From positions 285,096 to 349,095 of the forward strand of contig NZ_RJSE01000005.1 of NCBI RefSeq assembly GCF_003725695.1: a DNA stretch of 64,000 nt, given 5' to 3'. A program made the position numbers and the translations under genes. The notes beneath the pieces are model-generated. The model was given only the letters and a program-made list of their open reading frames with translations. It was not told the origin of the DNA and searched no databases. Position 1 is the first letter of the stretch; the number at the start of each line of letters is the position of its first letter. The stretch is from Nocardioides marmoriginsengisoli. GTDB taxonomy: Bacteria; Actinomycetota; Actinomycetes; Propionibacteriales; Nocardioidaceae. Below, in pieces: positions 4,232 to 23,805 of this stretch.

Positions 4232-7221
4232 CAACTCCCCCAGAACACCCGGTCGACCACGCCGAGCGCGCGCCGGGTGGTCCGCTGGTAGTCGTTGACC
4301 ATCGCCGTCGACTCACCCTGGCCGTAGCCGAGCACCTTGGCGACCGCGGCGCGCTCGCGCGGGTCGGTCGGCAGCTGGTCCGAAGGCTTGCCGCGGACCA
4401 GGACCGCGGCGTTGCGGGCCCGGCTCGCCAGCAACCAGGCGTCCCGCAGGATCTCGGCGTCCTCGGCGGCGATCAGGTCGTGCGCGACAGCGGCATCGAG
4501 AGCCGGCAACGTCTTCGTCGTCCGCAGCTCCGGTACGGCGCCCGCGTGCTGCAGCTGAAGAACCTGGATCGTCCACTCGACGTCGGCCAGCCCACCGCGA
4601 CCGAGCTTGAAGTGCGTCGCCGGGTCGGCGCCGCGCGGCATCCGCTCGTCCTCGATCCGTGCCTTGATCCTCCTGATCTCGACCAGGTCGTCCTCCCCGA
4701 GGCCGGCTGCCGGGAAGCGCAACGGGTCGATCAGTTCCCGGAACCGGTCCTTGAGGTCCTCGTCGCCGCAGACCGGCTCGGCACGCAGCAGTGCCTGCGC
4801 CTCCCAGACGGCCGACCACTTCGCGTAGTACGCGGCGTACGCCTCCAGGGTCCGGACCATCGCCCCCTGCTTGCCCTCGGGGCGCAGGTCGGCGTCGATC
4901 TCCAGCGGCGGGTCGGTCGCCGGCAGGGCCAGCAGCCGGCGGAGCTCGTTGACCACCGCCTGAGCCATGCTGCTCGCCTCGTGGGCATCGGCCCCGGGAT
5001 GCGGATCGTGCACGAACATCACGTCGGCGTCGCTGCCGTAGCCCATCTCGTAGCCGCCGTACCGGCCCATCGCGATGATCGCGAACCTGGTCGGCAACGG
5101 TCGCCCGCGCTCGGCCTCGACGGCCTCGATCGCGATCCGCAGCGACGCCTCCAGGGTCGCGTCGGTCAGGTCGGTGAGCGCGTACCCCACCTCGGCGACC
5201 CCGAAAGGCACGCACAGGTCGGCGGCGCTGATCCGGAGCAGCTCGCGACGGCGGATCGCCCGGATGCTCCGGATCGCTTCGACCGGGTCGCCACGACGGG
5301 ACGCGTTCGCGAGCATCTCGGTCTGCAACGCGTCCCGGGTCAGCGGCCGCAACGAGTCCTCACCACCGAGGATCTTCACGCCTTCCGGCTCGCGCTCCAG
5401 CAGGTCGGTGGCGTACCGGCTGGTGGCCAGCACCTGGGCCAGTCGTTGCGCGGTCTCGCCCTCGTCGCGCAGCATCGTCAGGTACCACGGCGTACTGCCC
5501 AGCGTGTCCGAGATCCGCCGGAAACCGAAGAGTCCGGCGTCAGGATCCGGCGCGTCCGCGAACCACTCCAGCAGCACCGGCAGCAGGGTCCGCTGGATCG
5601 CCGCCGTCCGGGAGACCCCGCTGGTCAGCGCCTCCAGGTGCCGCAGCGCCGCGTCCGGATCGGTGTAGCCGAGGGCCGCGAGCCGTTCCTTGGCCGCCTC
5701 CGTGGTCAGCCGGGCACCGTCGCCGGGGATCCGGGCGACGGCGGCCAGCAGCGGACGGTAGAAGAGCTTCTCGTGCAGCCGACGGGCCTCCCGCCGGTGG
5801 TGCCGCCACTCCTTCTCGAGCTCCAGGACCGGGTTGCGCAGGTGGCCCAGGGATCGCCCGAGCCGGCGCAGCGCCGCCTCCGCCTCCGGTACGACGTGGG
5901 TACGGCGCAGCTGGAAGAGCTGGATCCGGTGCTCGAAGGTGCGTAGGAACGCATACGCCTCGTGCATCGTCCGGCCGTCCTCACGGCCGATGTAGCCCCC
6001 CGCGGTGAGGCTGGACAGCGCGCTCAGCGTGGTCGGCTGGCGGACCTTGTCGTCGGTGCGACCGTGCACGAGCTGCAGCAGCTGGACCGCGAACTCGACG
6101 TCCCGCAGGCCGCCCGACCCGAGCTTGAGCTGGCGCTTGGCCTCGTTGGCCGGGATGTGCTCGAGGACCCGCCGGCGCATCGCCTGGACGTCGTCGACGA
6201 ACCCGTCGCGCTCGGCGGCCTGCCAGACCATCGGGCCGACGATCTCGACGTACTCCCGGCCGAGCTCCAGGTCACCGGCCACCGGCCGCGCCTTGAGCAG
6301 CGCCTGGAACTCCCACGTCTTCGCCCAGCGTTCGTAGTAGCCGCGGTGACTGGCAAGGGTGCGCACCAGCGGTCCGGACTTCCCCTCCGGGCGAAGGTTC
6401 GCGTCGACGGGCCAGATCGTGCCCTCGGCGGTGTGGTCGCCGCAGACCTGGATCAGCGTCGAGGCCAGGTGGGTCGCGACCCGCAACGCCGCGGACTCCT
6501 CGACGCCGTCGGCGGGCTCGGCCACGAAGATCACGTCGACGTCGCTCACGTAGTTGAGCTCGTGCCCGCCGCACTTGCCCATCGCGATCACCGCGAGCCG
6601 GCAGCCGGCCGCCTCGTCACCCACCTTGGCGCGCGCGATCGCCAGCGCGGCGTCCAGGGTGCCGGCCGCGAGGTCGGAGAGCTCGGCGGCGATGTCGTCC
6701 ATCCCGACGTGGTGGGCCAGGTCCCGGCTCGCCAGCCGGAGCAGCACCCGGCGGTACTCCACCCGGAGCGCGTCCACGGCGGACGCGTAGTCGGACCCGG
6801 AGACCGGCCGTGCGGCCAGCGGGTCGGCCCCCACCGCGGCCACCAGCCCCGCACGCACCGCGTAGGCGGCCGGCCGGGTGGAACCGAGGGTCGGGTCCGT
6901 CAGCTCGTGCCAGTGCTCGGGGTGCCGCACGAGGTGCTCGCCGAGGGCAGCGCTCATCCCGAGCACCGAGAGCAGCCGCATCGCGGTGCCCTCGTCCTCC
7001 TCCAGCGCCTGGATCAGCACGTCACCGTCGGCGGCGGCCGCGTGCAGCCGGACCAGGGCGTCCAGCGCCAGGTCGGGGTCGGCGGTACGCCCCAGGATCG
7101 CGACCACCGGGGAGGCCGGCGGGCCGAGCTCGGACAGCCGTGCGGCCGCGACGTCGGTCTCCTGGAAACCGAGTCGGGCCAGGCTCCCTGCGGACAGGAA
7201 GTTCGATCCCTCGCGAGGCAT
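4231..7221 (-). CDS. glnE: Bifunctional glutamine synthetase adenylyltransferase/deadenylylase
   Basis: A 996-residue GlnE with the two homologous nucleotidyltransferase halves. The first active site (GKCGGHELNYVSDVDV) is near residue 214 and is normally the adenylyl-removing domain; the second (GRYGGYEMGYGSDADV) is near residue 717 and is normally the adenylylating domain. Both keep the paired aspartates. GlnE tunes type I-beta glutamine synthetase by adenylylating one tyrosine in response to nitrogen status. ATG 7221 was chosen because the downstream sequence (MPREGSNFLSAG) begins 5 nt after the glnA2 stop; an open extension to 7290 lies inside glnA2. Synteny glnA2-glnE matches Mycobacterium Rv2222c-Rv2221c. 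Confidence 0.95.
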   Translation of the reverse strand: MPREGSNFLSAGSLARLGFQETDVAAARLSELGPPASPVVAILGRTADPDLALDALVRLHAAAADGDVLIQALEEDEGTAMRLLSVLGMSAALGEHLVRHPEHWHELTDPTLGSTRPAAYAVRAGLVAAVGADPLAARPVSGSDYASAVDALRVEYRRVLLRLASRDLAHHVGMDDIAAELSDLAAGTLDAALAIARAKVGDEAAGCRLAVIAMGKCGGHELNYVSDVDVIFVAEPADGVEESAALRVATHLASTLIQVCGDHTAEGTIWPVDANLRPEGKSGPLVRTLASHRGYYERWAKTWEFQALLKARPVAGDLELGREYVEIVGPMVWQAAERDGFVDDVQAMRRRVLEHIPANEAKRQLKLGSGGLRDVEFAVQLLQLVHGRTDDKVRQPTTLSALSSLTAGGYIGREDGRTMHEAYAFLRTFEHRIQLFQLRRTHVVPEAEAALRRLGRSLGHLRNPVLELEKEWRHHRREARRLHEKLFYRPLLAAVARIPGDGARLTTEAAKERLAALGYTDPDAALRHLEALTSGVSRTAAIQRTLLPVLLEWFADAPDPDAGLFGFRRISDTLGSTPWYLTMLRDEGETAQRLAQVLATSRYATDLLEREPEGVKILGGEDSLRPLTRDALQTEMLANASRRGDPVEAIRSIRAIRRRELLRISAADLCVPFGVAEVGYALTDLTDATLEASLRIAIEAVEAERGRPLPTRFAIIAMGRYGGYEMGYGSDADVMFVHDPHPGADAHEASSMAQAVVNELRRLLALPATDPPLEIDADLRPEGKQGAMVRTLEAYAAYYAKWSAVWEAQALLRAEPVCGDEDLKDRFRELIDPLRFPAAGLGEDDLVEIRRIKARIEDERMPRGADPATHFKLGRGGLADVEWTIQVLQLQHAGAVPELRTTKTLPALDAAVAHDLIAAEDAEILRDAWLLASRARNAAVLVRGKPSDQLPTDPRERAAVAKVLGYGQGESTAMVNDYQRTTRRALGVVDRVFWGS

Positions 7222-22345: not shown

Positions 22346-22786
22346 CTACTCGCAGAAGTCGCAGGTCCCCATCTTCGACAGCTGCGTGAAGCACGACGGG
22401 CAGAGCGCGACGACAGGTTCCGGCTTGGCCGGTGCGGCCGCTCGGGACGCCCGCGGCTTCGGGGTGCCCGGAACCCGGGTCCGCGCGGCCGGTGCCTGCT
22501 TCGCACGGTCGAGGTCGGCGCGGAACGCGACCTCGAACCCGAGATCGGACAGCACCTTGAGCGAGCCGAGCGAGACCTGGTCCGGGGTGAGGGGCTCCCC
22601 CGTCGCCTTGCCGTGGGCGTAGGCGAGCAGCGCGCGGGCGTCGTACCGGCGGCCGCGTTCGACCAGCACCTCGTCGCTAGGCCCCTCGAAGCCGAGCGCC
22701 TCCAGGAACGGTCCGGCACCCTGCAGGCCGTGGTCCCGGATCGCGGTCAGAACGTTGATGCGGGAGACCCGAGCAAGACTTGGCAC
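22346..22786 (-). CDS. Small protein with C-terminal four-Cys zinc ribbon
   Basis: A 146-residue soluble protein. The N-terminal part is helical (VLTAIRDHGLQGAGPFLEALGF, LLAYAHGKATG, LGSLKVLSDLGFEVAFR); a basic Pro/Ala linker follows and the last 20 residues hold a C-x2-C ... C-x2-C ribbon (LCPSCFTQL, TCDFCE). Probably nucleic-acid or protein binding; function unknown. GTG 22786 is chosen because the upstream extension reads through the duplicated RNase P 3' end. Confidence 0.6.
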   Translation of the reverse strand: MPSLARVSRINVLTAIRDHGLQGAGPFLEALGFEGPSDEVLVERGRRYDARALLAYAHGKATGEPLTPDQVSLGSLKVLSDLGFEVAFRADLDRAKQAPAARTRVPGTPKPRASRAAAPAKPEPVVALCPSCFTQLSKMGTCDFCE

Positions 22787-22796
22787 GGGTCGAATC

Positions 22797-23276
22797 CTAT
22801 CTGCGGGTGCGGACGGGCTGGCTCCTAGGCCACCTGCGAGACGAAGGAATCCCATTCCCACGCTCCCTCACATCCGCACTCGGAACCCGAATGCACATAG
22901 CGCCTGCCACCAATGCGGCAGCGGGAAGCAGGAAGAACAGAAGGAGGTCGACTACCTGCAAGGCGTTGAACCAGTTCGTAGTTCCCTCGAGCACGTCATA
23001 TCGGTCCAGATTGTGCCGAACCACCATTCTCGTGCCTAGGAAGCTGATCGCAGCGACCATGTACAAGGCGTACACCTTGATGGGCCTCGCGCTAGCAGCT
23101 AGCCAAGCGTAGGCAAGGACGGAGACCACGCCTACGAGAGGCGCGAGCCCCTCAACCAGCACGGTTCCTGGACTGACGAGGTTGGTCGCTTGGTCACGCT
23201 CCGCCTGCCCGGCGATCACCAAAGGCGCAGAACCGCACGCGAGCGGAACCAAGACCAGGCACAGCAATCGGTTCAT
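22797..23276 (-). CDS. Membrane protein inside the rnpB-flanked insertion
   Basis: A 159-residue protein if started at ATG 23276 (MNRLLCLVLVPLACGSA); upstream in-frame ATGs at 23300 and 23345 are possible. About four hydrophobic spans: LLCLVLVPLACGSAPLVIAG, LVEGLAPLVGVVSVLAYAWLA, VYALYMVAAISFLG and VVDLLLFFLLPAAALVAGAM. No family recognised. Base composition is visibly less G+C-rich than its neighbours. The last dozen codons are read from the displaced rnpB 3'-end copy, so its C-terminus was probably altered by the insertion. It may be vestigial. Confidence 0.45.
   Translation of the reverse strand: MNRLLCLVLVPLACGSAPLVIAGQAERDQATNLVSPGTVLVEGLAPLVGVVSVLAYAWLAASARPIKVYALYMVAAISFLGTRMVVRHNLDRYDVLEGTTNWFNALQVVDLLLFFLLPAAALVAGAMCIRVPSADVRERGNGIPSSRRWPRSQPVRTRR
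22806..22831. repeat. Displaced copy of the rnpB 3' end (att-like direct repeat)
   Basis: These 26 nt match 23411-23436, the 3' end of the RNase P RNA gene, at 25 of 26 positions in the same orientation. The copy lies 579 nt beyond the end of rnpB. A direct repeat of a stable-RNA gene's 3' end is what site-specific integration leaves behind. Confidence 0.8.
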
Positions 23277-23410
23277 CGGCCCCGCCTTCACTTCCGCCAT
23301 AGAGTTCTTGCTGGCCGTTGGCGTTCCCATCAAGCTACTCGGCAACCCGCGGAAAGTTGCGCTTCCCTACCTCACATCAGCGCACTTGTAGACGTTGTTG
23401 TCAGTTCGGT

Positions 23411-23436
23411 GGTGCGGACGGGCTGGCTCATAGGCC
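23411..23436. repeat. rnpB 3' end, resident copy of the direct repeat
   Basis: Partner of 22806-22831 (25/26 identical, direct orientation). This copy completes the P1 helix of the working RNase P RNA. If the segment between was inserted, this is the copy brought in by the element and the other is the displaced original. Confidence 0.75.
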
Positions 23437-23805
23437 GGGTTCTGTTCCTCCCGGCGCCTCACGACGCCGGGACTGGCGACCATCCATCTAGCGGTGCCGT
23501 TGCCGACACCGTCCTGCGATCTACCCGTGAGCTCAGGCGGGCCGCCCTCGAACGCTCACTGTCTGATCTTGCTCCAGGTGGGGTTTGCCTAGCCGTGACG
23601 GTCTCCCGCCTCGCTGGTGGTCTCTTACACCACCGTTTCACCCTTACCGCCGGCCCGAAGACCGGTGGCGGTCTGTTTTCTGTGGCACTTTCCCGCGAGT
23701 CACCTCGGGTGGCCGTTAGCCACCACCCTGCCCTGTGGAGCCCGGACCTTCCTCGGTGGAGTCGCCCCCAACGCGGTCGCCCGGCCAGCCCATCCGCAGC
23801 GACAG
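23411..23805 (-). ncRNA. rnpB: RNase P RNA, bacterial type A
   Basis: The catalytic RNA of RNase P, which matures tRNA 5' ends. On the minus strand the 5' end is near GTCGCTGCGGATGGGCTGG, which pairs with the 3' end near CCAGCCCGTCCGCACC to form helix P1. Conserved region I (GAGGAAGGTCCGGGCTCCAC, 23754-23735) and the ACAGAAAACAGACCGCC block (about 23683-23667) are plain, and GGTAAGGGTGAAA is at about 23650-23638. Ends are set by P1 pairing and may be off by a few nt. A TAGGCT box just upstream of the 5' end is a likely -10. Confidence 0.93.

Follow-up and report, generated by a model that had tools for sequence, protein, structure and literature searches.

The gene for RNase P RNA (rnpB) of Nocardioides marmoriginsengisoli is followed at a short distance by a second copy of its own 3' end, which raises the question of whether the DNA enclosed by the two copies was left by a mobile element that had used rnpB as its integration site. 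That mobile elements can integrate into the 3' ends of stable RNA genes is textbook knowledge in the case of tRNA and tmRNA. In the account proposed here, a mobile element would have entered the rnpB 3' end by site-specific recombination, so that the working gene would now end in the element's own copy of the rnpB end and the original 3' end would lie displaced on the far side, beside a zinc-ribbon-like gene; the element would later have shrunk to 579 nt without an integrase, with two att-like cores and an orphan open reading frame (ORF) remaining. We analyzed a stretch of 64,000 nt around this locus (contig NZ_RJSE01000005.1, positions 285,096 to 349,095; hereafter "the window") and compared it with related genomes, and we consider it likely that the insert is an integrase-less relic of site-specific integration into the rnpB 3' end. 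The features of the locus are collected in Table 1.

Table 1. Features of the rnpB locus and of the element ends of two congeners (positions refer to the window unless a locus is named)
Feature	Position	Strand	Basis or remark
Zinc-ribbon-like gene beyond distal core (named by eye)	22346..22786	-	Likely GTG start at 22786, 19 nt from core
Orphan ORF, 182 aa, end just beyond distal core	22797..23345	-	ORF list; protein and family searches
Distal att-like core (probable displaced rnpB 3' end), 25/26 identical	22806..22831	-	Direct repeat D1; shuffles ≤19/26
Insert, 579 nt, 59.9% G+C, without integrase	22832..23410	.	Composition; tblastn; own-genome integrases elsewhere
Inner direct repeat, distal side (possible arm site)	22863..22880	-	Direct repeat D5; shuffle test
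Inner direct repeat, rnpB side (possible arm site)	23367..23386	-	53/5000 shuffles as good; post hoc
att-like core, rnpB side (working rnpB 3' end)	23411..23436	-	Direct repeat D1
rnpB, RNase P RNA class A, full length	23415..23792	-	Rfam RF00010, 289 bits, model 1-367
Element-end hairpins directly after rnpB (G016, G019)	L041:9660-9722; L132:1620-1690		

The two cores have the same orientation, are identical at 25 of 26 positions, and lie 605 nt apart from start to start, as the initial annotation had described with respect to coordinates, orientation, and the single mismatch; its wording that the repeat represents the last 26 nt of rnpB needs correction, since the repeat consists of 22 nt of rnpB and 4 nt past the Rfam boundary. 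The best match of the 26-mer in the shuffled adjacent 1 kb reached 19/26 (2,000 shuffles), the next best match in the window, on both strands, was 18/26, and the 17-nt core has no third place in its own genome when up to one mismatch is allowed. The repeat of the rnpB 3' end is far above chance level.

The DNA between the cores has a G+C content of 59.9%, compared with a mean of 69.7% (standard deviation, 4.0) for windows of 579 nt, and is thus lower, as initially proposed; because 5% of such windows are equally low, its composition is low but not extreme. The proposal that the element is too small to hold an integrase also agrees with our results: family searches found none in the 579 nt, and tblastn with two rnpB integrases returned nothing in the whole window. 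The best relative of the rnpB integrase in the same genome, L127 (G000:C16:352782-353813), is located about 3.7 kb beyond the window end. An ORF on the rnpB strand remains open and extends through the insert, and its product is a candidate membrane protein as judged by reading of the sequence. A search of 5.8 billion proteins returned only the ORF product itself, families in Pfam, PHROGs, and NCBIfam gave no match, and the three matches in 294 genomes of the bacterial family are its own genome and two weak, partial-length ones. Protein, family, and locus comparisons gave no useful match that would assign the insert to a known gene or element. Each core is accompanied, 24 to 31 nt further into the insert, by one copy of an inner direct repeat; this repeat was noticed after the fact, 53 of 5,000 shuffles were as good, and its interpretation as a pair of arm sites is only suggestive.

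In order to see how the site is used in the genus, 24 genomes were searched with the core, and the regions downstream of rnpB were then read. Such an insert or its remains follow the rnpB 3' end in 10 of the 24 genomes (the window included; the rnpB flank of G003 was left out), and seven of them also have a second core (G014, G017, and G023 do not). The cores are separated by 9.3 kb in G018, 24.2 kb in G015, 25.2 kb in G004, and 2.0 kb in G019, with the same site, layout, and order as in the window; in G013 and G016 they are located on different contigs. Larger integrase-bearing elements flanked by core copies, for which the initial annotation had suggested a search, are present at rnpB in the genus (for instance, in G018 and G004). 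Tyrosine integrase genes are open in G004, G016, and G018, and that of G004 is 61% identical to that of G016. The elements of G016 and G018 combine the integrase (PF00589) with a TrwC/MobF relaxase (PF08751; the NF041492 MobF model scores above its cut-off), the two components by which an integrative mobilizable element is recognized. The remaining genomes form a decay series that leads from these open genes to an integrase with two internal stops in G013 (which had looked whole at first impression by tblastn), an integrase interrupted in G014 by an insertion sequence that we take to be IS3-like, a gene cut down to a 159-residue C-terminal stretch in G015, 39 residues left in G023, DNA in G017 that is 80.5% identical to the end of the G015 element over 113 nt, and finally G019, which has two cores (one with 3 mismatches), the end motif, and other genes, with no integrase found. 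Extra core-like places at one mismatch (a second in G012 and G017, a third in G013) fall in unrelated sequence and were not counted, nor was G020, suspected by eye to be a relic, whose end motif has a p value of 0.53.

A filled and an empty version of the site are provided by G016 and G012, the latter having one core, beside rnpB. On the rnpB side, the two genomes are 95.9% identical over 936 nt and the match stops at the core; on the far side, they are 91.3% identical over 1,511 nt and the match begins at the core, whereas the rnpB-side end of the G016 element has no match in the G012 locus. This comparison shows that the G016 element integrated precisely at the rnpB 3' end.

A scan with the G018 integrase, with one named genome per species, yielded 30 loci. 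Because the query is itself an rnpB integrase and several matches are short fragments, these loci are no fair sample of the integrase family; within them, rnpB lies in the same locus as a related integrase in 17 of 30 cases (16 by Rfam, with 29 of the 30 searched, plus L064, which is the G018 contig itself). The hosts include Nocardioides, Ornithinimicrobium, Kineococcus, Pseudonocardia, Aquihabitans, Acidimicrobiaceae, Frankiaceae, and one Dormibacterota metagenome-assembled genome. Looser layouts are found in L066 and L070, with 3.3 and 1.7 kb between rnpB and integrase, respectively, and in L076, where the integrase begins after rnpB and is directed away from it; L084 and L093, with only a core near a contig end, were left out of the 17. 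In L071, L077, L078, and L079, reading by eye places protein genes next to the integrase relatives, and no rnpB is within reach in L072 and L074. A second core without mismatch occurs in 6 of 10 genomes searched, with same-contig copies in SSC3 (13.7 kb apart), Kineococcus siccus (16.1 kb), and N. islandensis (22.6 kb) and copies on separate contigs in the genomes that carry L067, L069, and L073; in Aquihabitans, an 88% repeat is present at a distance of 9.3 kb. A Nocardioides islandensis contig (L214, L215) carries three rnpB cores, at 4859, 27503, and 35017 (the last with one mismatch), in a tandem-array-like arrangement. Two loci with related integrases come from viral_contigs, and rnpB-like sequence (window 23431-23797) occurs at 69 to 79% identity in five phage-labelled records. 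In an integrase tree of 25 rows, in which G013 is represented by a 58-residue piece only, the rnpB label needs four changes and 52 of 500 label shuffles do equally well, so that a single rnpB-only clade with one origin of rnpB targeting is unsupported.

At the level of the class, a degenerate core pattern was found in 187 of 394 genomes, and 42 of the 187 have at least two copies by hand count (reversed control, 5 of 394), indicating that the description of rnpB as a much less usual target had understated its use. Ten pairs from the 42, on the same contig and strand and among the matches listed, were inspected: all have the rnpB 5' motif upstream of one copy and lack it at the other, and six enclose an rnpB-family integrase or a piece of one (that of G350 with a stop). 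The other four pairs are those of G058 and G092, described below, and of G389 and G625. The latter two have small inserts of 1.2 to 1.3 kb that also lack an rnpB-family integrase, so another mechanism is possible for small inserts. Phage satellites with a capsid gene are a known kind of element, and the 9.9-kb rnpB-flanked element of G604, which carries an integrase, an HK97-type major capsid gene (L206:6256-7701), and a DUF3631 gene, is possibly one of them, as far as its genes tell; unlike such satellites, the window insert has none of these genes. Taken together, the data support the rnpB 3' end as a repeatedly used integration site in the genus and beyond, with a tRNA-like layout of full-length rnpB, element, and displaced 3' end.

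The window insert itself is less readily connected with these elements. The motif at the element ends after rnpB, represented by a matrix from 16 ends and scored against 200,000 random segments, is undetectable in the window (p = 0.18), and a CTGAC at matching spacing beside the window rnpB, picked out by eye as a motif remnant, was discarded at the same p value. Nor did comparison of the insert with other loci and with the element ends of six congeners reveal significant similarity. Had an integrase of that family acted here, a repeat preserved at 96% might lead one to expect that the end motifs, too, would be intact. Among four sequences folded, a strong hairpin stands at the element end straight after rnpB in G016 (z = -7.6) and G019 (z = -3.4), which might serve as an element-borne replacement for the rnpB terminator; there is no hairpin after rnpB in SSC3 (z = -0.3) or in the window (z = -0.03).

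On the far side of the insert, the zinc-ribbon identity of the neighboring gene is a tentative assignment from its sequence. This gene is located beside rnpB in four congeners (G005, G017, G019, and G020) and is a real neighbor of rnpB. The initial annotation had anticipated strains in which rnpB is joined directly to it. Such an exact empty site is found in no relative, because in all four congeners with that neighbor the gene lies 2.4 to 4.6 kb from rnpB, beyond other spacers; the opposite outcome, the same spacer with both repeats in all relatives, is excluded. The zinc-ribbon gene looks leaderless by eye, with a TAGGAT box 7 nt ahead of the GTG that probably starts it (window 22784-22799), and similar TAGG-type boxes precede it in several relatives. 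The proposed layout of an integration scar is thus favored by integrase-bearing elements at the rnpB 3' end in the genus and beyond and by the filled/empty pair, whereas the window's 579 nt are not tied to those elements by end motif, similarity, or an exact empty site. We infer that the insert originated by such integration, and the simplest reading is a scar of rnpB integration either by another integrase or with the element ends deleted.

Other origins of the repeat were weighed against this reading. Ordinary duplication or recombination without an integrase, such as capture of a piece of rnpB at an insertion or deletion junction, would agree with a window that has neither an integrase nor the known end motif, and it has apparent counterparts in G058 and G092 of another genus of the family (L200 and L201), where the repeat extends at least 60 nt further into rnpB, beyond the att core, with the copy 3.8 to 4.2 kb downstream; no rnpB-family integrase was found in either, and both look like partial rnpB duplications and not integrase elements. 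However, the window repeat starts inside rnpB and ends 4 nt past the Rfam end, like those of the integrase-bearing elements, and the site is used by integrases in nine other genus genomes, which makes duplication an unlikely source. Somewhat less likely still is a minimal non-autonomous element that remains mobile, with rnpB as its site and an integrase borrowed from another element: the nearly identical cores and the inner direct repeats are what such an element would display, but, apart from the two weak partial matches, its ORF has neither a second copy nor a homologue, and the best rnpB-integrase relative in its own genome, located elsewhere, is only 30% identical.

The distal copy could also be conserved for reasons unrelated to mobility, for instance as a promoter or regulatory component of the zinc-ribbon gene, and its distance from the likely start codon does place it where an upstream promoter sequence would be. 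This explanation is very improbable, given that the 140 nt upstream of the zinc-ribbon gene contain no such core in the four congeners mentioned above and that the rnpB spacer is different in each of them. The integrase-less relic remains our preferred account of the insert.

Islander (PMC4383910) covers genomic islands that occupy tRNA or tmRNA genes at their 3' ends; according to the available part of that source, these islands resemble the elements described here in their tyrosine integrase, regenerated target gene, and displaced 3' fragment at the far end, and they differ in that the target here is rnpB and the window insert has only 579 nt and no integrase. Actinomycete integrative and conjugative elements (AICEs) likewise share actinobacterial hosts, tyrosine integrases, and mostly RNA-gene 3' ends, with tRNA genes as the target for the vast majority, and the accessible text contains no occurrence of rnpB or RNase P (PMC3218068); the elements of G016 and G018 carry a MobF relaxase in this comparison. 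A catalogue of mycobacterial prophage attB sites in Actinomycetota lists largely tRNA and tmRNA genes, and rnpB and RNase P are absent from its main text as far as available (PMC10654092). In the open-licence literature, rnpB is named as an integration site in no paper found, within the portions accessible; curated island databases may list such islands.

We think it likely that rnpB takes its place beside tRNA and tmRNA genes as a regular integration site of the stable-RNA kind throughout Actinomycetota, and that a single tyrosine integrase family uses it for elements that otherwise have little in common (some with a relaxase, some with a capsid gene, some with repeated cores as in tandem arrays). 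Each integration would exchange about 20 to 30 nt at the 3' end of the ribozyme for the element's copy, and some elements add a strong hairpin immediately downstream. Cells depend on this ribozyme for the maturation of tRNA, and its RNA acquires a rebuilt 3' end upon integration, which raises the question of whether the swap of the 3' end and the element hairpin affect the processing or level of RNase P RNA. Island finders would gain a site that is possibly unlisted, and the rnpB site could serve actinobacterial genetics as an integration site.
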